Shown here: positions 45,808-61,498 of the stretch, piece after piece
How positions within the stretch are numbered: the stretch's first letter is position 1
How the letters are laid out: each line of letters begins with the position of its first letter
Origin: Altererythrobacter sp. TH136
GTDB lineage: Bacteria; Pseudomonadota; Alphaproteobacteria; Sphingomonadales; Sphingomonadaceae
Length of the DNA stretch: 64,000 nt
Reading direction: 5' to 3'
Assembly (NCBI RefSeq): GCF_007065885.1
Contig: NZ_CP041409.1
Location: 806,001-870,000, forward strand
Program-made: the position numbers and the translations under genes
Notes under the pieces: model-generated
What the model was told of the DNA's origin: nothing
Seen by the model: only the letters and a program-made list of their open reading frames with translations
Database searches by the model: none

Positions 45808-45868
45808 TCGCGCTTGCGCGCAGACGCTTTCGAAATCATGGTATCCCGCAGATAACTGGGAGAGCACC

Positions 45869-46636
45869 ATGACCGATCCGTTTGACCTCGCTGGCAAAGT
45901 CGCTGTCGTTACCGGCTCATCGCGCGGGATCGGCAAGGCCATTGCTGAGCAACTCGCCGCCCGCGGCGCGCGTGTGGTGGTGTCGAGCCGCAAGCAGGAT
46001 GCCTGCGAGGAAGTCGCCGCGGCGATCAACGCGCAGTACGTCGCAGGGCGCGCCATCGCGATCGCGGCCAGCATCTCATCGAAAGAAGCGCTGCAGGACC
46101 TTGTCGCGGGCACGCGCGAGCGGTTCGGGCCGATCGACATCCTGGTGTGCAACGCCGCGTCCAATCCGCACTATGGCTCGCTCGATACGATCGACGATGC
46201 GATGTTCCGCAAGACGCTCGACAACAACATCCTGTCGAATCACTGGCTGATCCAGCTCGCCTTGCCCGATATGCGCGCGAAGCGGGACGGGGCGATCGTG
46301 GTGATCAGTTCGATCGGCGGTCTGCGCGGATCGACGGTGCTCGGCGCCTATACCATCACCAAGGCGGCCGATATCCAGCTGGTCCGTAACTACGCTGTCG
46401 AGAATGGCCAGCACGGCATCCGCGTGAACGGCATCGCGCCGGGCCTGGTAAAAACCGACTTCGCCAAGGCTCTGTACGAAAATCCGGAAGCCGAGAAGGC
46501 GGCGGTGTCGCGCACCCCCATGGGCCGTCTTGGCGTGCCTGACGACATCGCCGGTGCGGCGGTGTTTCTGGCGTCCCCGGCAGCGAGTTGGCTGACCGGA
46601 CAGACGCTGGTCGTCGATGGCGGATCGACGGTCTAA
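45869..46636 (+). CDS. SDR family oxidoreductase
   Basis: 255 aa. NAD(P)-binding TGSSRGIGKAIAEQLAARGA, NAASNPHYGSLDTID (NAG-type loop), catalytic Ser in VISSIGGLRGS, YTITK as the Tyr-x-x-x-Lys, and PGLVKTDFAKAL plus C-terminal GQTLVVDGGSTV. A classical SDR, of the kind often annotated glucose or 3-ketoacyl reductase; substrate unknown. ATG 45869 follows GGGAGAGCACC. Same strand as the gcdH group with 61 nt spacing. Confidence 0.88.
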   Translation: MTDPFDLAGKVAVVTGSSRGIGKAIAEQLAARGARVVVSSRKQDACEEVAAAINAQYVAGRAIAIAASISSKEALQDLVAGTRERFGPIDILVCNAASNPHYGSLDTIDDAMFRKTLDNNILSNHWLIQLALPDMRAKRDGAIVVISSIGGLRGSTVLGAYTITKAADIQLVRNYAVENGQHGIRVNGIAPGLVKTDFAKALYENPEAEKAAVSRTPMGRLGVPDDIAGAAVFLASPAASWLTGQTLVVDGGSTV

Positions 46637-46805
46637 ACGCGCGCTGACTGCACTCCCGCTTGCCGCCATTCCAGAAAGCGGTATGCTCGATTCGTTGAGC
46701 CGCGCACAAGCGGCCGGCGGGAGAGATGCAAGTGGTCTGGAAATCCGTCACTTCAGTTGAGAAGCGCGTTCGCGGCAGCCTCGTCCTGGTATCGGGGGCT
46801 TTCGC

Positions 46806-48302
46806 TTGATCGCCCCGGGTTCCCTGCAAGGAGACGGCAGCCGGATTCCCCTCGGTACACGGCTGTCCTATGGCTTTGGCGCCGTGTCCAACGGGATCAA
46901 GAACGCCGCGTTCTCGACTTATCTGCTGCTGTATTACAATCAGGTGGTGGGCGTTTCGGCGGCAATCGTATCGACTGCGATCGCGCTCACCCTCATCGTC
47001 GATGCCGTGGCCGATCCGTTCATCGGCCGCTGGTCGGACATGACCCGCTCGCGCATCGGGCGGCGGCATCCCTTCATCTTCGGGTCGGCGCTGCCCACCG
47101 CGTTCTTCTTCGTGCTCGCGTGGTTTCCGCCGGACGGACTGTCGGACCTGGCGATGGGAGCATGGATCTTCGCGCTCGCCGCACTCACCCGCATGTCGAT
47201 CAGCGCGTTCGAGATCCCCAGCTCTGCAATGGCGCCGGAACTGACCAGCGATTACGCGGAGCGCACGCGGCTGTTCTCGCTCCGTTATTTCTTCGGCTAC
47301 GCCGGCACTTTCGGCTTCACCGCGTTCAGCCTGGCGTTTTTCTTCGTCGCGACGCCGGAGTTCCCGCGCGGGCAGCTCAACCCCGAAGGATACGTCAAGT
47401 TCGCTTTTGCCGGCGGCGCGCTGATCTTCATCGCCATTCTCGTATGCGGTCTGGGGACCGTGAAGCGGGTGTCACACATGCGGCAGGCGGAGGAAAGCGG
47501 ACCGGGCGGCCTGCTGTCGCACGTGAAGGAAATGGGCGACGCGTTTCGCCACCCCGGCTTCCTCGCGATCTTCGGCTTCGGCGTGTTCAAGTACACCGCC
47601 ATCGGCCTCTACAGTGCCACCACGCTGTATTTCGGCACGTATGTGTTCAAGCTGGGCGCGGGGCAGCTTGCGCTGCTCACCTTCGATTCCCTCGTCGCCG
47701 CCGCGATCGCGGCTCCGCTGGCCCCGAAGTTCTCGCGCTGGCTGGGCAAGCGCAACACGTCAGCGCTGATGGCCGTGTTCGGTGTCGCGCTCGGCCTCAC
47801 GCCCCTCGCCCTCACCTACCTGCGGGTGTTCTTCGCCCCCGGCGACCCCATGCTGCTGCCGACGCTGTTCGTGATCGGCGCGGTCTATGGCTCGATGGTG
47901 GCGATATCGCTGATCAACACCAGCGCGATGCTGGCCGACGTGGTGGAAGACCACGCGGTGAAGACCGGCAAGCACACCGCCGGCGTCTTCTTCGCCGCGT
48001 CGAGCTTCATGCAGCAGTGTTCCAGCGCGCTCGGCATCCTGGCCGCGGGCCTCGTCCTGACCTGGTCGGGATTTCCCGAGAAGATCGCGCCGGAGGCGGT
48101 CACCCGCGCGATGGAGCAGAGCCTGCTGGCGCACTACATCCCGGTAGTGATGAGCTTGTGGATCATTGGCGCGCTGTTCCTGTTGTTCTATCCCATCGAC
48201 GAGGCCAAGCACCGCGCGAATGTCGAACGGCTGAAAGCGCTCGAAGCCGAATCGCGTGAACAAGTCGTGCGTGACGGGGCCTTCGGCGCCCCTGCGAGAT
48301 AA
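46806..48302 (+). CDS. MFS transporter, GPH (MelB-like) family
   Basis: 498 aa, about 12 membrane helices. The GPH signature is DAVADPFIGRWSDMTRSRIGRRHPFIFGSALP, in the loop between helices 2 and 3, which includes the acidic residues that bind cation in MelB-type symporters; ISAFEIPSSAMAPELTSDY follows. It likely imports a glycoside, organic acid or similar substrate with Na+ or H+. The start is TTG 46806, as no ATG precedes the first helix. It begins the transport and beta-oxidation group; the first acyl-CoA dehydrogenase gene follows 13 nt downstream. Confidence 0.85.
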   Translation: MIAPGSLQGDGSRIPLGTRLSYGFGAVSNGIKNAAFSTYLLLYYNQVVGVSAAIVSTAIALTLIVDAVADPFIGRWSDMTRSRIGRRHPFIFGSALPTAFFFVLAWFPPDGLSDLAMGAWIFALAALTRMSISAFEIPSSAMAPELTSDYAERTRLFSLRYFFGYAGTFGFTAFSLAFFFVATPEFPRGQLNPEGYVKFAFAGGALIFIAILVCGLGTVKRVSHMRQAEESGPGGLLSHVKEMGDAFRHPGFLAIFGFGVFKYTAIGLYSATTLYFGTYVFKLGAGQLALLTFDSLVAAAIAAPLAPKFSRWLGKRNTSALMAVFGVALGLTPLALTYLRVFFAPGDPMLLPTLFVIGAVYGSMVAISLINTSAMLADVVEDHAVKTGKHTAGVFFAASSFMQQCSSALGILAAGLVLTWSGFPEKIAPEAVTRAMEQSLLAHYIPVVMSLWIIGALFLLFYPIDEAKHRANVERLKALEAESREQVVRDGAFGAPAR

Positions 48303-48315
48303 CGAGGAGACTGAC

Positions 48316-49527
48316 ATGGCAACCCTGGCAGAGCCGCAAACGGCAAGCGCCGACGATACCTTTCGCGAGGAAGTGCGCAGCTTTCTGGCGGAAAACTTCC
48401 CCCCTGATCTGAAGAACAAGGGCAATGCGCTCGCCAGTGTGGAAGGCCCCACCCAGGAAGGCCCGGCCGAAAAGGCGTGGCGCGAAGCCATGGGTGCACG
48501 CGGCTGGGGCGTGCCGACCTGGCCCAAGGAATACGGCGGCGGCGGGTTGACCCGCAAGCAAGCGGCAATCCTCAACGAGGAGATGGCCAAGGCCGGCGCT
48601 TACAACCCGATCGGCGGCATGGGCGTGATGATGTTCGGCCCCACCCTGCTGGAATACGGCAGCGAGGAGCAGAAGCAGGAGCATATTCCCCCGATCGCGC
48701 GCGGCGAGATCCGCTGGTGCCAGGGCTATTCGGAACCCAACGCCGGGTCCGATCTTGCGAACCTGCAGACCTTTGCCGAGGACAAGGGCGATCACTACCT
48801 CGTCAACGGGCAGAAAACCTGGACCAGCGGCGGCCAGTGGGCCGACAAGTGCTTCGCGATCGTGCGGACCGACCGCAGCGACAAGCATCACGGCATCTCG
48901 TTCATGCTGATCGACATGGATGCGCCCGGCGTGGAAGTGCGCCCGATCCAGATGATCAGCGGCATGAGCCCGTTCTGTGAAACATTCTTCACCGACGTGA
49001 AGGTGCCCAAGGAGAATCTGGTCGGGAAGGAAGGCCAGGGCTGGACCATCGGCAAGCGCCTGCTTCAGCACGAGCGCACCAACCTGTCCGGCGGCGGCAG
49101 CATGGCCCGGATGATGGGCTCCAGCCTCGCCGACACGGCCAAGAAATACGTCGAGACCGACGACACCGGCGCGATCGCCGACAAGACCCTGCGCGACAAG
49201 ATCGCCGATTTCGAGATCCGCTGGCAGAGCTTCCTGCTCACCGCCAAGCGCGCGGTCGAAGAAAGCAAGGCGGCCGGCGGCGTGTCCGAAATCAGCTCGG
49301 TGCTCAAGAAGCTCGGCACCAAGCTCGGCCAGGAACGTGCCGAACTGATGATCGAGATCCAGGGCCTGCAGGGCCTTGGCTGGGAAGGCGAAGGCTTCAC
49401 CGATAGCGAACTGGCGGGCGTGCGCGCCTGGCTGTTCGGCAAGGCGACCACGATCTACGGCGGCTCGACCGAAATCCAGAACAACATCATCGCCAAGCGC
49501 GTGCTTGGCATGCTCGACCACCAGTAA
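48316..49527 (+). CDS. Acyl-CoA dehydrogenase, catalytic-type subunit
   Basis: 403 aa. FAD/substrate motifs GYSEPNAGSDLANLQ and GQKTWTSGGQWADK are typical. The C-terminal position that is Glu in MCAD (IYEG) is IYGG here, but Glu253 in LLQHERTNL stands where isovaleryl-CoA dehydrogenase has its catalytic base, so it is probably active. ATG 48316 follows AACGAGGAGAC. The next gene, another acyl-CoA dehydrogenase homologue, starts 13 nt after its stop; the two likely form a heteromer as in FadE26/FadE27-type pairs. Substrate probably a longer or branched acyl-CoA. Confidence 0.9.
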   Translation: MATLAEPQTASADDTFREEVRSFLAENFPPDLKNKGNALASVEGPTQEGPAEKAWREAMGARGWGVPTWPKEYGGGGLTRKQAAILNEEMAKAGAYNPIGGMGVMMFGPTLLEYGSEEQKQEHIPPIARGEIRWCQGYSEPNAGSDLANLQTFAEDKGDHYLVNGQKTWTSGGQWADKCFAIVRTDRSDKHHGISFMLIDMDAPGVEVRPIQMISGMSPFCETFFTDVKVPKENLVGKEGQGWTIGKRLLQHERTNLSGGGSMARMMGSSLADTAKKYVETDDTGAIADKTLRDKIADFEIRWQSFLLTAKRAVEESKAAGGVSEISSVLKKLGTKLGQERAELMIEIQGLQGLGWEGEGFTDSELAGVRAWLFGKATTIYGGSTEIQNNIIAKRVLGMLDHQ

Positions 49528-49540
49528 AGGCGCGCGAGAC

Positions 49541-50608
49541 ATGGCTATCTTGAACGAAGAACAGGAAATGCTGCGCGACATGGCGCGCGGCTGGGCGACC
49601 AACGAGAACCCGATCACCGCTTGGCGCAAGGTGCGCACGGAGAAGCCGGCCGAAGGCTACTCGCCTGACGTCTGGCGGACGATGGGCGAGATGGGCTGGG
49701 CCGGGATCGTCATCCCCGAAGAGTTCGGCGGCAGTGATTTCGGCTGGATGAGCGCTGGCCTGGTGGTGGAGGAGCTCGGCAAGACGCTCACCGCCAGCCC
49801 GATGATCGCCAGCACCCTCGCCGCAAGCGCGATCGTGCTGGGCGGCAGCGACGAACAGAAGCAGAAGTGGCTGCCACGGCTCGCCACGGGTGAAGTGGTC
49901 GGCACGCTCGCGTTCGATGAAGGTCCGCGGCACACGGGCCGGTATTCGGCCGCCGTCGATGGCGGCAAGCTGTCCGGCACGAAGGCGTTCGTCCACGAAG
50001 CGCATGGCGCGACCCTGTTCGTGGTCGCTGCGGCGGACGGGCTCTATCTGGTGGAAAAGGGCGACGGCGTGTCGCTGTCGGACCGCAAGTTGACCGATCA
50101 GCGCAGCCACGCCGAAGTCACCTTCAATGGGGCGGCGGCGGACAAGCTGGCGAACGGCAGGGAGGATCTGGTTGACCAGGTGCTCGACCGTGCGCGCATC
50201 CTCACCGCGGCCGAGATGCTGGGCATGGCGCAGCAGGTGTTCGACGTGACCCTCGATTACCTGAAGCAGCGCGTGCAGTTCAACCAGGTGCTCGCCAGCT
50301 TCCAGGCTTTGCAGCACCGGATGGCGGACCTGTTCGGCGACCTGGCGATGATGCGATCGGCGGTCGAAGGGGGTCTTGAAGCGCTCGATGGCGGTTACGG
50401 CATTCCCCGCGCCGCGACGGTCGCCAAGGCCGAAGCGAACCGCGTGCTCCACACGATGAGCCGCGAGGGCATCCAGCTGCACGGCGGCATCGGCATGACC
50501 GATGAATACGATGTCGGCTTCTTCCTCAAGCGCGCGCGCGTGCTCGAATCGAGCTGGGGTTCCACCGGCTATCTGAAGAACCGGTTTGCCGCCCTGGCGG
50601 GCTACTGA
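49541..50608 (+). CDS. Acyl-CoA dehydrogenase-like partner subunit, no visible catalytic Glu
   Basis: 355 aa. N-terminal MAILNEEQEMLRDMARGWA and C-terminal SREGIQLHGGIGMTDEYDVGFFLKR identify an ACAD fold of the smaller FadE27-like type. The IVD-type catalytic position reads LDRARILTA and no YEG motif occurs at the C-terminus, so neither usual glutamate is present. The FAD-contacting segments are also shortened (LAFDEGPRHTG). It is probably the second, structural or FAD-binding partner of the subunit encoded just upstream. The MFS gene appears to start at CTG over this stop codon. Confidence 0.85.
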   Translation: MAILNEEQEMLRDMARGWATNENPITAWRKVRTEKPAEGYSPDVWRTMGEMGWAGIVIPEEFGGSDFGWMSAGLVVEELGKTLTASPMIASTLAASAIVLGGSDEQKQKWLPRLATGEVVGTLAFDEGPRHTGRYSAAVDGGKLSGTKAFVHEAHGATLFVVAAADGLYLVEKGDGVSLSDRKLTDQRSHAEVTFNGAAADKLANGREDLVDQVLDRARILTAAEMLGMAQQVFDVTLDYLKQRVQFNQVLASFQALQHRMADLFGDLAMMRSAVEGGLEALDGGYGIPRAATVAKAEANRVLHTMSREGIQLHGGIGMTDEYDVGFFLKRARVLESSWGSTGYLKNRFAALAGY

Positions 50609-51915
50609 GTTCGGTTGATCCTGTCGAAGACGACGTCCTCGCCCTTCGGGGTGGGGACGACGCCTTCGCGCGCCACGACCGGTTCGTCGCGGACAACCTG
50701 AAGCGCAATTACACCGCGAATTTCATTCACGGCGTGCTGGGGATGACCGGCTTCCGCCTGATCTACGCGCCGACCATCATCCCCGCTTACCTGCTGGCGA
50801 TCACCGGCAGCGCGGCGGCGGTCGGGCTCGGCACCGCACTGCTCCAGCTTGGCGCCACCATCTCGCCGATCCTGTCGGGCGCGCGGATCGAGCATCGCAG
50901 CCACATCCTGCCGTATTCGATCCGCGTCGGATCGATGATGCGGCTGGCCATCCTCGGCCTTGCCCTTGCCGGCTGGTTCCTGACCGGCGAGGTGCTGGTC
51001 ATGGTCACGCTGGCGCTGTTCGCGTTCCTGGGCTTCTTCAACGGCGCCCAGCGTGTCGCCTTCCAGATGATCATGGCCAAGGTTATCCCGATAGACCGGC
51101 GGGGCCGGTTGCAGGGGTACCGGAACCTTGCCGGCGGGCTGATTGCGGCGGTGCTGGCGTGGGTCGCGGGCAAGTACTTCATTGCGGAGGAGTGGCTGGG
51201 CAACGGATACTCCACCACGTTCCTGTTCGCCTTCGCGCTGACCAGCGCGGGGCTGCTGGTGCTGCAGACGATGATCCGCGAGCCCGCTGCACCGGCGTCG
51301 CGCCCGGTCATCCCGTTGCGCGAGCGCATCCGGCAGTTCCCGCAGCTGCTGGAGGACAAGGACTTCGCCCGCTTCATCGCGGCGCAGGCCTGCGCCACCG
51401 CGATCCGCATCGGCGGGCCATTCTGGACGATCTACGCCGCGCAGCGTCTGGGGATGACCGGCGCGCTCATCGGCGGGCTCAGCTTCGCGTTCCTTGGCGC
51501 GGATACCTTGTCGAACCTGTTGTGGGGCCCGATGGGCGACCGGCTGGGCTTTCGCATCGTCTACATCCTGTCGCTCGCCAGCGCGGCGGCGGGCGTGATC
51601 CTGCTGATGACGCTGGGCACGGCGGCGGCGATCTACGCGGCGTTCATCCTGCTGGGCATCGGCGGATCGGGCTGGATGCTGGCGTCGACGACGATGGTGC
51701 TCGAATTCGGCGCGCACGAAGATATTCCCATGCGCCTGGCCTTTGTCACCACCGCGGAAGGCGCGGTGGCAGCGATCGGTCCGATCCTCGCGGGACTGCT
51801 GGTCGCCGTCGCCGGGTTTGGCCCGCTATTCGCGCTGGTGCTCGCGGGCATCGCCCTGGCGCTGGTGCTGATGATATTTGCAGTACGTGAACCGCGCCGG
51901 CGCACGCAAGTTTGA
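50605..51915 (+). CDS. MFS transporter (start probably CTG at 50605)
   Basis: 436 aa if read from CTG 50605. The major-facilitator body is clear: GFRLIYAPTIIPAYLLAITGS, a loop RIEHRSHILPYSIRVGSMMR, GFFNGAQRVAFQMIMAKVIP and GALIGGLSFAFLGADTLSNLLWGPMGD. The first ordinary start, GTG 50734, would cut into the conserved N-terminus. Upstream residues in frame, ending DRFVADNLKRNYTANFIHGV, read as a genuine cytoplasmic tail and first helix. The only start-like codon there is CTG 50605, placed as CTGA over the preceding stop, just like other coupled junctions here. Probably imports or exports a substrate of the adjacent pathway. Confidence 0.78.
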   Translation: MSSVDPVEDDVLALRGGDDAFARHDRFVADNLKRNYTANFIHGVLGMTGFRLIYAPTIIPAYLLAITGSAAAVGLGTALLQLGATISPILSGARIEHRSHILPYSIRVGSMMRLAILGLALAGWFLTGEVLVMVTLALFAFLGFFNGAQRVAFQMIMAKVIPIDRRGRLQGYRNLAGGLIAAVLAWVAGKYFIAEEWLGNGYSTTFLFAFALTSAGLLVLQTMIREPAAPASRPVIPLRERIRQFPQLLEDKDFARFIAAQACATAIRIGGPFWTIYAAQRLGMTGALIGGLSFAFLGADTLSNLLWGPMGDRLGFRIVYILSLASAAAGVILLMTLGTAAAIYAAFILLGIGGSGWMLASTTMVLEFGAHEDIPMRLAFVTTAEGAVAAIGPILAGLLVAVAGFGPLFALVLAGIALALVLMIFAVREPRRRTQV

Positions 51916-51986
51916 CTTTCGAGGCCAAGGCGTTGCCCGCCTGCCTCACCTCCACGGAAAGAACCGGGATTCAGCGGCCAAGCGCT

Positions 51987-52007
51987 GCTTCCTGCTTGAC
52001 AGGAAGC
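51987..52007 (+). terminator. Candidate terminator after the MFS gene
   Basis: GCTTCCTG (51987-51994) pairs perfectly with CAGGAAGC (52000-52007) around the loop CTTGA, and is followed by TTGTGTT. It separates the ACAD/MFS genes from the TonB receptor. The U-tract is interrupted. Confidence 0.45.
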
Positions 52008-52088
52008 TTGTGTTCACCTTTCAGATTCGAGGAACGGGTACCCATCGCGTAATGGCGAGGACCCGTCCCCAAGGGAGAGAGAAGACCG

Positions 52089-54932
52089 ATGATCAAGGCT
52101 AATCTGCGCCATACCTGTGCCTGCTTCGCAATCGCGGCGGGCATTTTCGGGGTGAGCTCCGCTCAAGCGCAAGACACCTCGGCCGCTGCTGTGACCGAAG
52201 AGTCGGCCGAGGTGCTGGAAGAGAGCGTCGATGATGTGGGCATCGTGGTGACCGCGCAGGGCCGCGCCCAGGCGCTGGCTGACGTTCCGGTCGCGATCTC
52301 TGCCGTTAATGCAGAGACGCTCCAGAATTCGGGTGCCAATGACATTCGGCAGCTCAACCAGGTCGCCCCGTCGCTCCTGGTGTCCTCGACCGGCAACGAA
52401 GCGAATGCCTCTCCGCGTATTCGCGGTATCGGCACCGTCGGCGACAATCCCGGCCTTGAAAGCTCGGTGGTTGTGTTCATCGACGGCGTGTATCGCTCGC
52501 GTTCGGGCATCGGCCTGAACGAACTCGGTGAGATCGACCGCGTCGAGGTGCTGCGCGGCCCGCAAGGAACCCTGGGCGGCCGTAACTCCTCCGCCGGCCT
52601 GATCTCCATTATCTCTAAGCAGCCGTCCTTCAGCGGTTTCTCCGCCGGTGGCGAAGCCACTTACGGCAACTACGATTACCTGCGTCTGGCAGGGAACGTG
52701 AACGTGCCGCTCGGCGATACCGTGGCCGCCCGGGTCGACGGCGTGTTCGTGCAGCGTGACGGGTTCTACCGGGATCCCGCGAACGACACCCGGGTCAACG
52801 ACCGCGATCGCTATTTCCTGCGCGGGCAGCTCCGCTTCGAGCCGACCAGCGACATCAGCGTCCGTCTGATCGGCGATTACACGAACCGCGAGGAATCGTG
52901 CTGCGGTGCGGTCTATGTCGATCGCTCGGTCAATCCGTTCATCGGCAATCTCAACGAGCCGGTGGCATCGGTCAATGCGGGCGCCGGGACGTTCGGCAAC
53001 GGCAACAACATCATCAACGTGCTGCGCGATCTGGGGCAAGACCCGGCCGCGTTCAACCGGGGCTACGATCGTACGCTGTCGGTCACTCCCGGCCGCAGCT
53101 ACGACGGCAAGACCGAGGATTGGGGCGTTTCAGGCCAAGTGGATTGGAACCTCGGCGAGGCATCGCTGACCTCGATTACCGCATACCGCGATTACTATAA
53201 CGAACAGGCTGCCGACCTCGATTACAGCACCATCGACATCCTTTACAACGGGGCTGATGGCAACAACCGGCGCGCGTTCAGGACTTTCACGCAGGAACTG
53301 CGCCTGAACGGCGAAGCATTCGACGGTAAGCTCGACTGGCTGATTGGCGGCTTCTACGCGGACGAGAAATTCCGCGGGAAAAGCAATCTGCGCTTCGGCA
53401 GCCAGTATGGCCGCTTTGCCGCTTGCCGCGCTGTGTCCGGCGGCACGCTGGCCGCGGGCTATTCCCCGACCAGCGCGGGCTGCCTCGCGCCGGCCATTCG
53501 CGGTGCGCTTAACGCCGGATTTGTCCCCGGCATCTCGGCCGGGGTGGGACAGACCCTCACCGCCGCGTTCGACCGGCTGGATTCCATCAGCGATCGCGGA
53601 AGCACCGTGGATTTCTACCGGCAGGACAGCCGCAGCTTCGCGGCCTTCACGCACAACATCCTGCACGTCACCGACACGGTCGATCTGACGCTGGGCCTGC
53701 GTTATACCAATGAACGCAAGAAGTTCAGCGCCACCTTCGGCAACGACAACACGGCGTGTGTCGCCCAGCAGGCGGCGCTTGGGCCCTTCCTCGCCACCGG
53801 TCTGGCGGCCACGGCGGGCGGGCTCATCTCGCTGACGTGCCAGGGCAATTCGACGAGCGAGCTGAACGGGGTCAGCATCAACGACCAGCGCAAGGAAGAC
53901 GAATTCACCGGCACCGCCATCCTGTCGTGGAAGCCGGTCGACGATCTGCTGGTCTACGGCAGCTATTCGCGCGGGTACAAGGCGGGCGGGTTCAACTTCG
54001 ACCGCTCGGCGCTCAAGGCACCGATCCGGTCATTCGCCAGCTTCGGCGGCGGCAATGCGCAGGCCGGTGCGCAGGCGCTCGTCGGCAATCTCCAGTTCGA
54101 CGCGGAAACGGTGAACGCATTCGAGATTGGCGCGAAGTACGCGACCGGACCTTTTTCGCTGTCTGGCGCGCTGTTCCTTCAGCAGTTCAGCAACTTCCAG
54201 CTGAACACGTTCGACGGCACCGTCTACATCGTCCAGAATATCAACGGCTGTTCGGCTGATCTGAACGGTGCCGACCGTGACCAAAGCAAGTTCACAGGCG
54301 CTCCCAACTTCAACGCCGGCGCCAGCGCCAGCGGCGCCTGCGCCGCGGACGATGTGACGTATGGCGTGCGCTCGCAGGGCGTCGAGTTGGAAGCGCAACT
54401 GGTTCCGGCCGACAACATCCGGGTGGCGCTCGGCATGACCTATGCCGACACCAAGTATCGCCGGAACCTGGTTGGGACCGAGGATGGCGCGCCGCTTAAC
54501 GAGTCGCTGCGCAAGCTGCCGGGGGACAACCTGTCCAACGCGCCGCAGATCACCACCACCGCCTCGTTCGCCTATACCCCGGAAATCGGCAACAGTGGCC
54601 TGTCGGCCCTGTTCTATGTCGATGGCCGGATGACCGGCGACTACAACACGGGGTCGGACCTGTTCCCGCAGAAGGAGCAGGACGGTTACGCGTTGTTCAA
54701 CGCCCGCATCGGCCTCCGCGGCCCCGACCAGCGTTGGTCGGTGGAGCTGTGGGGACAGAACATCTTCAACAAGGACTACGCTCAGGTCGCCTTCAACTCG
54801 CCGTTCCAGGAAGGCGCGGTCTCGACGACGACTGCGTTCGCCGATCCGCAGTACCCGGGCGGCCGGCAGATCTATTCGCAGTTCCTCGCGGAGCCGCGGA
54901 CTTACGGTGTGACCCTGCGCAGCCAGTTCTGA
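52089..54932 (+). CDS. TonB-dependent outer-membrane receptor
   Basis: 947 aa. Signal peptide up to AQAQ, then an N-terminal segment with DDVGIVVTAQGRAQALADVPVAIS, the TonB-box region and plug start. The plug shows SPRIRGIGTVGDNPGLESSVVVFIDGVYRSRSG and IDRVEVLRGPQGTLGGRNSSAG. The rest is a 22-strand barrel ending with RTYGVTLRSQF, terminal Phe. It imports a large or hydrophobic substrate using TonB. The substrate is unknown; this family in Sphingomonadales is very diverse. Strong ribosome-binding site AAGGGAGAGAGAAG. Followed by a strong terminator. It is the uptake end of the surrounding catabolic group. Confidence 0.93.
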   Translation: MIKANLRHTCACFAIAAGIFGVSSAQAQDTSAAAVTEESAEVLEESVDDVGIVVTAQGRAQALADVPVAISAVNAETLQNSGANDIRQLNQVAPSLLVSSTGNEANASPRIRGIGTVGDNPGLESSVVVFIDGVYRSRSGIGLNELGEIDRVEVLRGPQGTLGGRNSSAGLISIISKQPSFSGFSAGGEATYGNYDYLRLAGNVNVPLGDTVAARVDGVFVQRDGFYRDPANDTRVNDRDRYFLRGQLRFEPTSDISVRLIGDYTNREESCCGAVYVDRSVNPFIGNLNEPVASVNAGAGTFGNGNNIINVLRDLGQDPAAFNRGYDRTLSVTPGRSYDGKTEDWGVSGQVDWNLGEASLTSITAYRDYYNEQAADLDYSTIDILYNGADGNNRRAFRTFTQELRLNGEAFDGKLDWLIGGFYADEKFRGKSNLRFGSQYGRFAACRAVSGGTLAAGYSPTSAGCLAPAIRGALNAGFVPGISAGVGQTLTAAFDRLDSISDRGSTVDFYRQDSRSFAAFTHNILHVTDTVDLTLGLRYTNERKKFSATFGNDNTACVAQQAALGPFLATGLAATAGGLISLTCQGNSTSELNGVSINDQRKEDEFTGTAILSWKPVDDLLVYGSYSRGYKAGGFNFDRSALKAPIRSFASFGGGNAQAGAQALVGNLQFDAETVNAFEIGAKYATGPFSLSGALFLQQFSNFQLNTFDGTVYIVQNINGCSADLNGADRDQSKFTGAPNFNAGASASGACAADDVTYGVRSQGVELEAQLVPADNIRVALGMTYADTKYRRNLVGTEDGAPLNESLRKLPGDNLSNAPQITTTASFAYTPEIGNSGLSALFYVDGRMTGDYNTGSDLFPQKEQDGYALFNARIGLRGPDQRWSVELWGQNIFNKDYAQVAFNSPFQEGAVSTTTAFADPQYPGGRQIYSQFLAEPRTYGVTLRSQF

Positions 54933-55009: not shown

Positions 55010-56257
55010 TCAGCCGACTTCGGGCGGATCGGTGAACACGCCCGCGCACGGCGTCCAGGCATACAGTTTGACCGCCAGCGCAGGGTCCGGCTGCCGGGCC
55101 GCCCAGCCGCGCGCCTCGTACGCGGCGTTCAGGGCCGGCATGATCAGCTGGCTCGCCACCAGCGGATCGACCGCGCGCACCGACCCGTCGGCGATCCCGT
55201 CAGACAACATCCCGGCAAAGCGATTGGCCAGCCGATTTGACCGCACGACCACGCTGCCCCGATCCCCCATTGGCAGCGCCTGCAGCGCCGTGGTCCGCAG
55301 CAGCGGCATCGGATCGTGGAACTGCAGGTCGATCAGCTCTGCCAGCGCACTCGCGGTGCGCGTCCACCCGTCCCCCGCCAGCTCTCGCGCAGCCAGCTGC
55401 ACCGCTGACAGGCGATCGTAACTGCGCTGGAAACACGCGAAGACCAGATCGTCCTTGGCGTTGTGATGATGATAGAAACTGCCTTTGGTGACATTCAGCG
55501 CCGCCGCGATGCGGTTGACCGATGCGCCCCGGTAACCGCGCTGGTTGATCATCACGGTCGCCGACCGGAGGAATGCGCCGGTCGCGTCATCATCGTCCCC
55601 GCCGCGCCAGGATTCGTTCGCCAGCGTCTGCGGCGACCAGCCCCGCCCCTCCCCCGCCAGGCCGCGGGCGAAGATATCGAACATCCGTGCTTCAAGGCGA
55701 TCGAAGTCATGCGTCGAATAGCGCAGCGACCATACCGGCCACCAGAACATCGCTTCCAGCAGGATGTGCGCGCGCGCCGTGTCGAGCGACCGCTTGAGGC
55801 CGCCGCGCCCGTCGCCGAAGAACGCGCGCACGTGATCGAGCACCCGCGCGTATTGCGCCAGCAGCGGCGCCTGCGCGGCTTCGCCCAGCGTGCGGATTTC
55901 GCTGAGCGCGGTGATCAGCCCGCTCTCGCCGCCGCGAATCCGGCGGCGGAGCGCGACGTGCGCGCGCACGAACGAGCGCACCCGTTCCTGCGGCGTCGGT
56001 TGCGCGGCAGCCTCCGCCGCCGCTGCTTCGAGCCATTCCAGCGTCGCTTCGTAGACCGCGACCACCAGCTTGTCCTTGCGGTCGAAGTAATAGGTGATGC
56101 TGGTGGCGTTGAGCCGGACCGAGCGCGCAAGCTCGGCGAACGTGGTGCCCTTGACCCCCAGTTCGTTGATCAGCGCGGACGCTGCATGAATGACATCCTG
56201 CCGCCGCCGTTCGAAGCGGTCGGTCTCGTTCGGCCTGGCGTGGGTCCCCTCTCCCAT
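55010..56257 (-). CDS. Two-headed TetR-family transcriptional regulator
   Basis: 415 aa, about twice the usual TetR length (190-220). Two complete TetR-type N-terminal domains are present: residues 18-70 (ALINELGVKGTTFAELARSV then NATSITYYFDRKDKLVVAVYE) and residues about 226-280 (TVMINQRGYRGASVNRIAAA then VTKGSFYHHHNAKDDLVFACF). Each is followed by its own helical ligand-binding-type region. It likely represses the adjacent acyl-CoA synthetase operon and neighbouring degradation genes, with an acyl-CoA as inducer. It starts 7 nt after the synthetase stop and is co-transcribed with it. Confidence 0.9.
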   Translation of the reverse strand: MGEGTHARPNETDRFERRRQDVIHAASALINELGVKGTTFAELARSVRLNATSITYYFDRKDKLVVAVYEATLEWLEAAAAEAAAQPTPQERVRSFVRAHVALRRRIRGGESGLITALSEIRTLGEAAQAPLLAQYARVLDHVRAFFGDGRGGLKRSLDTARAHILLEAMFWWPVWSLRYSTHDFDRLEARMFDIFARGLAGEGRGWSPQTLANESWRGGDDDDATGAFLRSATVMINQRGYRGASVNRIAAALNVTKGSFYHHHNAKDDLVFACFQRSYDRLSAVQLAARELAGDGWTRTASALAELIDLQFHDPMPLLRTTALQALPMGDRGSVVVRSNRLANRFAGMLSDGIADGSVRAVDPLVASQLIMPALNAAYEARGWAARQPDPALAVKLYAWTPCAGVFTDPPEVG

Positions 56258-56264
56258 CGCCAGG

Positions 56265-58028
56265 TCAGCGCTGCCCGGGCGGCTGTTCGAAGAGCGCCTT
56301 CAGGTCCTTCTTGAGGATCTTGCCGTTGGCGTTGCGCGGCAGCGTGTCCGCGCTCAACAGGATCCGGACCGGCACCTTGAACTTGGCTAGCCGCTCGGCA
56401 ACCCAGGCCTGCAGTTCGGCCTCGGTGGCGGTCGTGCCGGGTGCGAGGTGGACCACTGCCGCCGGTTCTTCGCCCAGCTGCTGATGCGGGATGCCGACCA
56501 GCGCCGCGTCGGTCACCGCGGGGTGATCGTAGAGGACGTTCTCGACTTCGGACGAATAGATGTTCTCGCCCCCGCGCAGGATCATGTCCTTGGCCCGGTC
56601 GACGATGTAGCAGAAGCCGTCTTCGTCGAGCTTGGCGAGGTCGCCGGTCCGCACCCAGCCGTCGATGAAGGTCTCGGCAGTGGCTTCAGGATTGTTCCAG
56701 TACCCCTTCACCACCATCGGCCCGCGCGCATAAAGCTCGCCCACTTCGCCGACGGGAAGCTCCTCCGTGCCCTCTTCGTTCATGATCTTGAGGTCGGCGA
56801 CGGCGACCGGCGGGCCGCAACTCGTCGGGCGGTTGAGGTAGTCTTCGCTCGAGTGGCCGGTGACCGTGGCCATCGTTTCGGTCATGCCCCAACCGTTGCC
56901 GGGGAGCGCGCCGAAGATGTCGCGGATCTTGCGCACCAGTTCGGGCGCCGAGGGCGCGCCGCCATAGGCGATCGCCTCCAGGCTGGAGAGGTCGTAGTTC
57001 TCGCGTTCGGGATGCTCGATCAGCTGCCACGCGATCGTCGGCACGCCGCCGGTCACGTTGACCTTCTCGCGCTCGATGATCTGGAACGCCTTCACCGGGT
57101 CCCATCGGTGCATGAACACCAGCGTGTTGCCCGCCGCCAGCGTGCCCATCAGGGTGGCGGAGCAGGCGGTGACATGAAACAGCGGGATCACCGTCAGCGC
57201 CGTCTTGGGCACCGGGTCGGGCGGCACCTCTCCGCGCCGCAGCACCGACACCGTGGCGTTGTACGCGCCAGAGAAGATGTTGGTCACGAGATTGCGGTGC
57301 GTGCCGAGCGCCCCCTTGGGCTTGCCAGTGGTGCCGCTGGTGTAGAAAATCGTCGCGTCATCGTCGGAGGCGATGTCGACCGCCGGAAGCTCCGCATCCG
57401 GCAGGTTCTTCCATTCGTCGGTAGTGCCGATGAGCTCCTCCAGCCGCGCTGCAGGCGGCGCAAGGTCACCCAGGCAGCGGCTGACGAATACGTGGCGCAG
57501 CGAGGGGATGTCGCCGGTGTGCGGGGAAATCCGGTCCCACCGCTCCGCATCGCAGATCAGCACCGTGGTGCCCGAATCCGCCAGGCCATAGGCGAGTTCG
57601 CCCCCGGTCCACCAGGCGTTGAGCGGGACGCACACCGCGCCGATCGCCACGCTTGCGAAGAACGCCACTGGCCATTCGGGCAGGTTGCGCATCGCCAGCG
57701 CGACCCGGTCGCCCTTTTTCACGCCGTGCGCCTGCAGCACCTGCGCCAGCTTTGCCACCGCGCGGTGGAACGCGGCATAGGTCACCCGCTCGTCTTCGTA
57801 GATGGTGAACTCGCGGTCCCCGTGCGTGCGCGCGACCATCATCAGCGCGCGCAGGTTTTCCGGCGCGTTCTTCCACACCCGCGTGGGCACGCCGCGGATG
57901 GTGATCGTCTCCATTTCGAATCGCTCGCCAGGCGCGGTGAGCTTGTCCTGGATCTGTCCGCGGCTCATCGCAGGCCAGCCCGCGGGCGGCGTCCAGCCGA
58001 GAACCTCGGCCAGGTTGGTGTCAGGCAT
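56265..58028 (-). CDS. Long-chain-type acyl-CoA synthetase / AMP-dependent ligase
   Basis: 587 aa. Adenylation motifs: ATIFYTSGTTGKPKGALG (P-loop-like), GNGWGMTETMATVTG, WVRTGDLAKLDEDG with the ATP-ribose Asp, and the C-terminal catalytic Lys in NANGKILKKDLK. It activates a carboxylic acid as acyl-AMP then CoA thioester. Chain length or ring type cannot be assigned. It is divergent from the serine hydrolase/FadB-like operon across a 181-bp promoter region and precedes the TetR regulator in its operon. Confidence 0.92.
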   Translation of the reverse strand: MPDTNLAEVLGWTPPAGWPAMSRGQIQDKLTAPGERFEMETITIRGVPTRVWKNAPENLRALMMVARTHGDREFTIYEDERVTYAAFHRAVAKLAQVLQAHGVKKGDRVALAMRNLPEWPVAFFASVAIGAVCVPLNAWWTGGELAYGLADSGTTVLICDAERWDRISPHTGDIPSLRHVFVSRCLGDLAPPAARLEELIGTTDEWKNLPDAELPAVDIASDDDATIFYTSGTTGKPKGALGTHRNLVTNIFSGAYNATVSVLRRGEVPPDPVPKTALTVIPLFHVTACSATLMGTLAAGNTLVFMHRWDPVKAFQIIEREKVNVTGGVPTIAWQLIEHPERENYDLSSLEAIAYGGAPSAPELVRKIRDIFGALPGNGWGMTETMATVTGHSSEDYLNRPTSCGPPVAVADLKIMNEEGTEELPVGEVGELYARGPMVVKGYWNNPEATAETFIDGWVRTGDLAKLDEDGFCYIVDRAKDMILRGGENIYSSEVENVLYDHPAVTDAALVGIPHQQLGEEPAAVVHLAPGTTATEAELQAWVAERLAKFKVPVRILLSADTLPRNANGKILKKDLKALFEQPPGQR

Positions 58029-58209
58029 CGCTTTCCCTTATGCTTATGTCTTTGGCCCGACTGTATGAGCAATCGCGCCGCCTTCGCAAGCGGGCTTTCC
58101 AGATGCAGGTATGGCGGCAAGCGGCGGAGAGTATTTGCCCTGATCGGAAAGCTGGGTATGGCTTGACCGCAAGAGCGCCGATGGGCGCCATGCGGGAGAG
58201 AATCGCGTC
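58029..58209. promoter_or_regulatory. Divergent promoter region for the ligase-TetR and hydrolase-FadB operons
   Basis: 181 bp between two divergent starts (ATG 58028 on minus, ATG 58210 on plus). An obvious place for a TetR operator, but I see no clean palindrome long enough to name as such. Confidence 0.4.
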
Positions 58210-59445
58210 ATGCTGGACACCACCACTGCCACCGCGCTGGGGTTCGATCAGGATCGGCTGAATCGGATCGAGCCATTTCTGCGCACCGCCTATCTCGACA
58301 GCGGCCGCCTGCCGATGATGCAGGTGTCGGTCGCCCGCGACGGGCAGATTGCCTATCGCGCGCAGATGGGCGTGATGGGCGAAGGGCGCGAAGACCTGCG
58401 CGACGACGCGCTGTTCCGCATCGCCAGCATGACCAAGCCAGTCACCTCGATCGCGTTCATGCAGCTGGTCGAACAGTGCAAGGTCGCGCTGGAAGACCCC
58501 GTGACCAAGGTGTTCCCGGAATTCAGGAACCTGTCGGTCTACGCCGGCGGGGGCGGCAGCGGGGCGCCGTTCGTGCCGGGCGCGGCGGCGGGGCCCATGC
58601 GGTTCGTCGACCTGCTCACCCACATGAGCGGCCTGACCTATGGCTTCCAGCAGCGCAGCAACGTCGATGCCGCCTATCGCGAGAGCAATTTCGACTTCGC
58701 CCGCGCGCAGCTCGACAGCGACGAATACATCGCCAAGCTGGCGAAGATCCCGCTCGAGTTTTCGCCCGGCGACCGGTGGAATTACTCGGTCTCGACCGAC
58801 GTACTGGGCGTGGCGGTGGAGCGGCTCAGCGGCATGCGGCTGGGTGATTACTTCCAGCAGCACATCTTCGGCCCCCTGGGCATGACCGACACCCGCTTCG
58901 GCGCGGAAGGCCAGCTTGAGCGGCTGGTCGATGCCTATCAGTACGTGCCCGGCCAGCCCGCCAAGCTGATCGACGCCGGCCGCACCAGCCGGCTGGGCCA
59001 GGCGGGCAAGTTCGACAGCGGCGGCGGCGGCCTGGTCGGCACCATCGCCGACTACGAGAAGTTTTGCGCCGTGCTGATCGGCCGCGGGGAGCTGAACGGC
59101 GCGCGGATCATCGCGCCCAAGACGCTCGACCTGATGACCGCCAACCACCTGCCCGGCGGCCAGGACCTGACGCAGCTGTCCCAGAGCCTGTTCTCCGAAA
59201 GCCAGAACGCCGGGGTCGGCTTTGGCCTAGGCTTCGCCTGCGTGATCGATCCCGCCAAGACGCTGATGCCGTCGAGCAAGGGCGAATTCTACTGGGGCGG
59301 CGCCTATTCGACCGCGTTCTTCGTCGATCCGGTGGAGGGCATCTCGATGGTGTTCATGACCCAGGTCTACCCGTCCAGCGCCTATCCGGTGCGCCGCCAG
59401 CTCAAAACCCTGATCTATTCCGCGCTGTCCGACAGCCGCGCTTGA
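58210..59445 (+). CDS. Serine hydrolase of the beta-lactamase/EstB family
   Basis: 411 aa. Ser73-x-x-Lys76 in [11 protein letters not shown], Tyr-x-Ser in [17 protein letters not shown] (class C-like Tyr), and [15 protein letters not shown] near the third motif. It has no signal peptide and so is probably cytoplasmic. Enzymes of this family include esterases, and a role in cleaving an ester or lactone substrate before beta-oxidation is inferred from its place at the head of the FadB-like operon. It is divergent from the acyl-CoA synthetase gene. Confidence 0.88.
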
Positions 59446-59458
59446 GGAGCCTGAGAAA

Positions 59459-61498
59459 ATGACCGATCCGATTTCCTCCCACCGTGACGGCGAAGTGCTG
59501 GTCGTCGTGTCCAACAACCCCCCGGTCAATGCGCTCGGCCAGGCGGTGCGCGCCGGCCTCAAGCGCGAGGTCGAGGGTGGCCTTGCCGACGACAGCGTCA
59601 AGGCGATCGTGATCCGCTGCGACGGGCGCACGTTCTTCGCCGGGGCCGACATCACCGAATTCGGCAAGGCGCCGCAGGGCCCCAGCCTGCCCGAAACGCT
59701 CGATGCGATGGAGGCGAGCGACAAGCCGGTGGTCGCCGCGATCCACGGCACGGCGCTGGGCGGCGGGTGCGAAGTCGCGCTCGCCTGCCACTACCGCGTC
59801 GCGGTGCCGAGCGCGAAGCTCGGCCTGCCCGAAGTCAAGCTCGGCCTGATTCCGGGCGCCGCGGGCACCCAGCGCATGCCGCGCCTGGTCGGTGCCGAAG
59901 CCGCGCTGCCGCTGGTCGTCGGCGGCGATCCGATCAGCGCCAAGAAGGCTGAAAGCATCGGCTTGCTCGATGCGATCGTCGGCGAGGACAGCCTGGAGGT
60001 TGATGCCGTCGCCTTCGCCCGCAGCAAGATCGGCCAGCCGGTCCCGCGCGCCTCGGAGGGCACCAGGAACCAGGACGGGGTGCGCGACCCCGACATCTTC
60101 GACAAATTCCGCGCCAGCCAGGCACGCAAGATCCGCGGCTTCGACGCGCCCAACGCCGCGATCGAAGCGGTCAAGGCGGCGGGCGAGCTGCCCTATGCCG
60201 AGGGCGTGAAGAAGGAGCGCGAGCTGTTCGGCAAGCTGATGTCCGGCACCCAGTCCGCCGCCATGCGCCATTACTTCTTCGCCGAGCGCGCCGCGAACAA
60301 GATCGACGACGTGCCCGCCGACACTCCGCTGATCCCGATCAAGCGGATCGGCATCATCGGTGCGGGCACCATGGGCGGCGGGATCGGGATGAACTTCCTG
60401 ACCGCCGGCATCCCGGTGACGATCCTGGAGATGCAGCAGGAAGCGCTCGACCGCGGCGCGAAGACCATCCGCAAGAATTACGAAAATACCGCCAAGCGCG
60501 GCCGCATGACCGAGGATGCGGTCGAAAAGGCGATGGGCCTGCTCAAGCCGACGCTCGACTACTCCGAACTGGCCGACTGCGACCTGGTGATCGAGGCCGT
60601 GTATGAGAACATGGACGTCAAGAAACAGGTCTTCGCCAAGCTTGACGAAGTGGTGAAACAGGGCGCGATCCTGGCCTCCAACACCAGCTACCTCGACATC
60701 GACGAGATCGCGACCGCCACCGAGCGGCCCGGCTATGTCGTGGGTCTGCACTTCTTCTCACCCGCCAACGTGATGAAGCTGCTGGAGATCGTGCGTGGGC
60801 GTGAAACCCGGCACGACGTGCTGGCAACGGTAATGAAGCTCGCCAAGACCATCGGCAAGGTCGCCGCGGTGTCGGGGGTGTGCCCCGGGTTCATCGGCAA
60901 CCGGATGCTCAGCCCGCGCCAGCAACAGGCCAACGCGCTGATCATGGAAGGCGCGAATTACTGGGACATCGACGACGTCCTGCTCGAATTCGGTTTCCCG
61001 ATGGGCCCGTTCCAGATGGGCGACCTCGCGGGCACCGACATCGGCTGGCACCGCGATCCGTCGAAGATCGAAACGATCCGCGATGCGCTGTGCGCCAAGG
61101 GCCGCTTCGGCCAGAAGGCTGGCAAGGGCTATTACGACTACGACGAGGCGCGCAACCGCACCCCGTCCGAAGAAACCAAGGCGATCATCGCCGATTTCGC
61201 TGCCAAGGAAGGCAAGCCGCAGCGCCAAATCAGCAAGGACGAGATCCGCGAGCGGCTGCTTTACCCCATGGTCAACGAAGGCGCGAAGATCCTCGACGAA
61301 GGCATGGCCCAGCGCGCGAGCGACATCGATGTGGTCTGGATCAACGGCTACGGCTGGCCGCTCTACACCGGCGGGCCGATGTTCTGGGCCGACACCATCG
61401 GGCTGGATACCGTGGTCGAAGGTCTCGAGAAGCACGATCTGCCGGTGAGCGGATACCTGCGCCGCAAGGCCGAGGCGCACGAGAAGTTCAACCGCTGA
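59459..61498 (+). CDS. FadB-like bifunctional enoyl-CoA hydratase / 3-hydroxyacyl-CoA dehydrogenase
   Basis: 679 aa. N-terminal crotonase domain (about 1-190): [10 protein letters not shown], oxyanion loop [19 protein letters not shown] and [22 protein letters not shown], retaining both catalytic Glu positions. Central NAD-binding domain from about residue 295: [19 protein letters not shown], then [17 protein letters not shown] with the catalytic His, and a C-terminal dimerisation half. It hydrates enoyl-CoA and oxidises 3-hydroxyacyl-CoA. Starts 13 nt after the serine hydrolase stop; the thiolase-like gene overlaps its stop by one base (TGATG). Confidence 0.94.

Follow-up and report, generated by a model that had tools for sequence, protein, structure and literature searches.

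The gene at positions 55010–56257 of the window, the whole 64,000-nucleotide stretch of DNA that was analysed, probably encodes an Mce3R-like double-TFR repressor, acting as a one-chain pseudo-dimer on one asymmetric predicted operator. The single chain would fold as an intramolecular pseudo-dimer with its two ligand domains packed together, and two unlike recognition helices would enter consecutive major grooves of a single asymmetric operator, the sides of which are predicted to be TTCnGAA and GGTATG with centres about one helical turn apart. The regulator would probably repress the divergent ligase-regulator and esterase-fadB transcripts, its own gene included, and in several relatives the facing operon too, and it would be released by a small acid or an acyl-CoA handled by the cluster. 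A conserved asymmetric box tends to accompany the regulator; from this and the data below we infer binding of the protein to the box, repression, autoregulation, and an inducer.

Pfam analysis placed the 415-aa regulator in the TetR family, with TetR_N (PF00440) reaching 74.1 bits over two stretches against a curated cut-off of 24 (whole-protein E value 7.7e-21, best stretch at residues 230–275), and TetR_C_24 was located at residues 324–380 in the second half. NCBIfam single-TetR matches began, in most rows, at residues 16–19 in the first half and 222–236 in the second. The two TetR HTHs proposed by a sequence-only reading of the same DNA could thus be confirmed by the double TetR_N match, with its limits of 18–70 and 226–280 being about right, and the separate C-terminal region that it gave to each half was borne out by two complete helical halves in an AlphaFold model. 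The gene and its parts were as follows, with mean identities among homologues.

55010–56257, minus strand: double TetR regulator gene, 415 aa, stop included (ORF list, Pfam, homologues, and model)
56072–56206, minus strand: N-half HTH region, residues 18–62, the first of the two TetR_N stretches, coordinates converted from residue numbers; mean identity 0.722
55664–56071, minus strand: N-half ligand/dimer domain, residues 63–198, from model helices; mean identity 0.605
55589–55663, minus strand: linker, residues 199–223, mostly helix-free in the model; mean identity 0.451
55442–55576, minus strand: C-half HTH region, residues 228–272 (Pfam TetR_N at 230–275); mean identity 0.86
55043–55441, minus strand: C-half ligand/dimer domain, residues 273–405, from TetR_C_24 at 324–380 and model helices; mean identity 0.674

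The regulator was 99.5% identical to a Tsuneonella troitsensis protein (locus L001). Among the 60 relatives searched, full-length homologues were present in 10 of 10 same-genus (Tsuneonella) genomes at 71–100% identity and in five genomes of other genera (G014, G025, G026, G016, and G031) at 50–63%, and the regulator is therefore not a chance ORF. Remote homologues with 30–34% identity occurred in G012, G045, and G047, the homologue in G013 covered residues 15–364 at 27% identity, and the remaining matches mostly covered one half of the regulator. Family-wide, 40 of 199 genomes had a match at E <= 1e-40, including the window genome itself (G000, 2.6 Mb). Across the class, at least 5 of 385 genomes matched, three of them from other families, a lower bound as at most four candidates per genome were scored.

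The neighbouring genes that enter the argument were the following.

56265–58028, minus strand: acyl-CoA ligase gene (AMP-binding), its stop 7 bases before the regulator ATG
58210–59445, plus strand: esterase-like gene (beta-lactamase fold), divergent from the ligase
59459–61498, plus strand: FadB-like enoyl-CoA hydratase/3-hydroxyacyl-CoA dehydrogenase gene, after the esterase
45869–46636, plus strand: short-chain dehydrogenase (SDR) gene, a possible further target
46806–51915, plus strand: facing run of an MFS/GPH transporter, two acyl-CoA dehydrogenases, and an MFS transporter, kept in other genera

All 10 other Tsuneonella loci have the ligase-regulator order facing away from the esterase, as do 16 of the 30 loci examined from other genera; in this comparison the esterase of L076 was a fragment and several loci had a gap of more than 1 kb. 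The ligase, both dehydrogenases, and the esterase scored below the cut-offs of all NCBIfam matches listed, and for this reason no substrate is named. The TonB receptor slot at 52089–54932 was variable, with a match of at least 82% in two of the 10 other Tsuneonella loci (L001 and L028) and a partial 29% match in L040, while the genes around the slot stay. In G012, the gene for a homologue with 33% identity to the regulator follows fadB within the same cluster (L035:9132–10271), and the box is absent there.

A bipartite, non-palindromic box, TTCnGAAnnnnnGGTATG, was found de novo between the divergent ligase and esterase genes. Expectation maximization (EM) on 24 regions gave the motif tt.TC.GAAag...GGTATG with 20.9 bits, and its log-likelihood of 221 and 220 in two runs, inflated by related rows among the regions, compared with 75.8 ± 3.1 (largest 81.0) for 22 dinucleotide shuffles. 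Against its own reverse complement, the motif reached a best correlation of 0.43 over 11 columns, which marks it as no palindrome. The half-site centres lie approximately 11–12 bp apart by manual count, a distance that suits successive major grooves. Alignment of 13 ligase-esterase regions revealed GGTATG at one place in 13 of 13 rows and at a second place in 11 of 13 (AGTATG in L032, lost in L035), with poorly alignable surroundings of the copies. Three sites were of note in the window.

58141–58160, plus strand: predicted operator, strong copy, TGATCGGAAAGCTGGGTATG, score 22.3, the best in the window; a motif training row
58094–58113, plus strand: predicted operator, weak copy, GCTTTCCAGATGCAGGTATG, score 8.9, 47 bp before the strong copy
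45826–45845, plus strand: possible third operator, GCTTTCGAAATCATGGTATC, score 12.8, 23 bases before the SDR ATG

The strong copy was conserved in the 13-region alignment. Two unrelated places in the window (23298 and 28493) scored at least as high as the weak copy, whose GGTATG was invariant in all 13 aligned rows. The possible third operator had the second-best score in the window and was held out from motif training. Paired copies, each scoring at least 8, had starts 47 bp apart in five Tsuneonella regions and 57 bp apart in L030, 55 bp apart in seven regions of other genera, and 54 bp apart in L084; among the other ten of the 24 regions, four had partners 31 or 143 bp apart, five had a single copy, and L035 had none. 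Control of the divergent operons had been proposed earlier through 58029–58209 and 51916–52088; the first part is backed by the conserved box around 58029–58209, and the second fell away, as a candidate operator before the TonB receptor at 51916–52088 was rejected on a best score of -1.1. A GGTATG at 46680 before an MFS gene was also discounted, with a box score of about 0.1. Further box copies were seen downstream of fadB in several genera (L073:16401, L072:1816, L081:16636, and L084:16993), perhaps before another regulated gene.

Held-out promoters were scored using a matrix trained on ligase-esterase regions only. Upstream of the gene that leads the facing operon in other genera (a paralogue of acyl-CoA dehydrogenase), five of seven loci had a site at p <= 0.01 per 400 bp, and a sixth locus was at p 0.0104. 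At the same p, one of 22 ACAD1 upstream regions had a site, and none was found upstream of MFS1 (0/18), ACAD2 (0/22), MFS2 (0/20), the TonB receptor (0/4), the regulator (0/24), FADB (0/23), thiolase (0/4), or other genes (0/9); the sites are thus confined to few promoters. Of four homologue loci of other families, representing three genomes, L152 (22.7) and L153 (13.0) had a site of at least 12 in the 250 bases before the regulator, and no such site was present in L151 (11.1) or L154. Within the family, the distant loci L087, L088, L089, and L090 had sites of at least 12, and L034, L035, L036, and L086 had none; the site of L037 lay approximately 5 kb off and that of L085 inside the esterase. 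Shuffled DNA gave no match of at least 12 in 104,750 bases.

Esterase homologues were present in 89 of 199 family genomes, and as a negative control the 400 bp upstream of the esterase were scored in 30 genomes with loci. None of nine regulator-less genomes reached 12 (best 11.1). Scores of at least 12 were obtained in 18 of 21 regulator carriers, of which 16 were training rows, so that only the absence side of the control is independent; the carrier misses were G012, with its 33% homologue, and G137 and G091, in which the esterase lies away from the regulator. Two further matches occurred in regulator-less loci (L211 at 12696, 16.1; L213 at 3390, 12.5). Matches inside the esterase coding sequence of regulator-less L205 (14.1) and L206 (22.8) were set aside as coding coincidence on a conserved peptide, FLxSxY, near the esterase start. 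Over the 199 family genomes, 16 of the 40 carriers contained the exact pattern TTCNGAANNNNNGGTATG, compared with 13 of the 159 genomes lacking the regulator (Fisher p 4.7e-6), an enrichment that is partly circular because many of the loci counted gave the motif; a reversed control pattern occurred in 2 of 40 and 10 of 159, respectively. By manual count, 14 of the 18 occurrences in carriers lay within 10 kb of the regulator. The window's own genome had no match to the exact pattern, and a 2-mismatch search there (39+39 against 30+30 for the control) was not informative.

GGTATG with a different left part was kept in three of seven regulator-less ligase-esterase regions (G129, G190, and G162), the other four being without GGTATG, and GGTATG with a different left half was also present in G012; hence the full box, and not GGTATG alone, marks the regulator. 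The GGTATG half may belong to the promoter or to another regulator. Such persistence would also suit a rather unlikely alternative, in which the box serves as a promoter element, with GGTATG in the -10 region, or is bound by a different regulator, and the double TetR has its site elsewhere. By eye, some boxes overlap promoter-like stretches and several sites have a TTG before them at promoter spacing, as a promoter element would; however, a promoter scan of 57900–58300 gave no match, two copies face the same way at a divergent promoter, and the L090 copy faces away from its gene. Whether as a promoter element or as a foreign site, the box would also have to be reconciled with the lack of the full bipartite form in regulator-less genomes and with the L152 site (22.7), which lies next to a homologue from another family.

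In the regulator-less loci L205, L206, and L209, the intergenic region holds GGGTATG with TCTCCC on its left and a conserved stretch after it. The CCC and GGG of these loci point to partial palindromy, as in a site that another regulator might bind.

The fold of the Mce3R-like repressor favoured here was predicted from 21 sequences, and the AlphaFold model reached a pLDDT of 86.8 and a pTM of 0.86. Foldseek comparison against the PDB gave Mce3R (9b7y) as the top match (E 1.5e-8, TM 0.69, rmsd 5.7, 411 columns), and the remaining 49 of the 50 listed matches were alignments of about 170–200 columns. VIA-align with Mce3R gave Z 27.8 over 355 residues (rmsd 4.0, 12% identity) against 15.1 for the best single TetR, and the L026 homologue from another family, 26% identical to the window protein, gave Z 26.0 over 357 residues against Mce3R, with the next at 17.1. 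A whole-chain match of such size means that the predicted halves are placed relative to each other much as in Mce3R. In the model, the halves of one chain are packed as an asymmetric pseudo-dimer, and the earlier suggestion that one polypeptide would act like a dimer gains support from this predicted structural likeness. One bipartite, asymmetric type of site fits better than the companion suggestion of different operators for the two halves, which is therefore not favoured.

Two chains might instead pair N-with-N and C-with-C, giving two symmetric TetR dimers on linkers, each with its own palindrome and ligand. This pairing is one of the two models that the Mce3R authors sought to separate, as described in PMC11667970, and each half of the window protein does resemble ordinary homodimeric TetRs; it is nevertheless judged improbable, as the whole-chain match of the model is to Mce3R, which is arranged the other way, and as one non-palindromic box type recurs rather than two palindromes.

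Over 46 distinct homologues, mean majority identity was 0.876 for the N-half recognition helix (residues 49–58) and 0.974 for that of the C half (255–264); loss of recognition-helix residues in one half, which the sequence-only reading had named as a sign of degeneracy, was not found across them. Judged by sequence, both HTHs are intact and decay is seen in neither half. At residue 48 (56114–56116, minus strand), in the turn preceding the N-half recognition helix, the window protein has R where 42 of 46 homologues, including the near-identical T. troitsensis protein, have glycine, and this R48 could alter DNA affinity in the window strain. That the protein is mainly an activator, or sets one half on DNA with the other as dimer or ligand partner, is very unlikely: conservation of the N-half HTH is indeed lower (0.722, compared with 0.86 for the C half), R48 stands where most homologues have G, and some TetR relatives activate, FasR being termed an activator in PMC7382501, but both recognition helices are conserved at the levels given above and the box has two conserved parts.

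For the repressor, an acyl-CoA inducer is plausible, judging from the neighbouring genes and from the structural relatives AibR and KstR2; according to the title of its PDB entry, AibR was solved with isovaleryl-CoA.

In a tree of the halves, drawn to weigh internal duplication against fusion, N halves stood apart from C halves with support of 71/97 and 92/80, single TetRs falling on both sides and several branches being long. As a tentative and on the whole doubtful extension, the regulator may belong to an old double-TFR lineage of Alphaproteobacteria, whose fusion was independent of that in Mce3R and which reads TTCnGAA and GGTATG so that the operator would have a built-in direction; same-facing copies would let two chains or a chain pair clamp or loop the DNA and thereby set both directions. 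GGTATG would then be the older part, and as it stays without the regulator, the fused regulator would have adopted half of an existing operator.

The double-TFR layout is already known from Mce3R, and the window protein is a further case of it. No natural double TetR from Alphaproteobacteria was among the literature matches listed, and to our knowledge the predicted box has no earlier description. What is newly found here is the bipartite box beside acid-breakdown genes, a predicted target. With a well-conserved double-TFR group in Alphaproteobacteria, found in non-pathogens insofar as its hosts are named, and with a predicted operator, the recognition of asymmetric DNA by a fused TetR can be tested in a simple system outside mycobacteria, as can the number of its ligand sites, one or two.

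Among ordinary TetR regulators, PfmR (3vpr) resembles the N half by profile, AibR (5k7f/h/z) and DarR (8suk and 8sua) resemble the C half, and KstR2 (4w97) is a structural relative matching one half. All four have one TetR half per chain and are homodimeric. The window protein differs from Mce3R (Rv1963c of M. tuberculosis) in being alphaproteobacterial, in its 12% identity in the structural alignment, and in the sequence of its box, which is predicted only. Mce3R was not among the 60 listed matches of homology searches with the regulator, and no mce/yrbE genes were present among the neighbours scanned, which were ligase, esterase, FadB, TonB receptor, MFS, and acyl-CoA dehydrogenase genes instead. 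PMC11667970 describes the Mce3R chain as an omega-shaped, asymmetric unit that has a single ligand domain, in which one ligand pocket is common to both halves, and that binds a 25-bp site of non-palindromic sequence; these sites occur as a pair 53 bp apart, and the unit additionally forms a homodimer. Its authors present the structure as the first for a double TFR and cite such proteins as infrequent, with 204 predicted in Actinomycetes, and PMC4482099 describes the Mce3R motifs as multiple copies that are not classical palindromes. The window regulator shares with Mce3R two TetR halves in approximately 400 aa, two unlike HTHs, a whole-chain fold, as modelled, and a setting in lipid or acyl-CoA metabolism; it would further share a place inside its own regulon and a non-palindromic site in two copies, here a predicted box.
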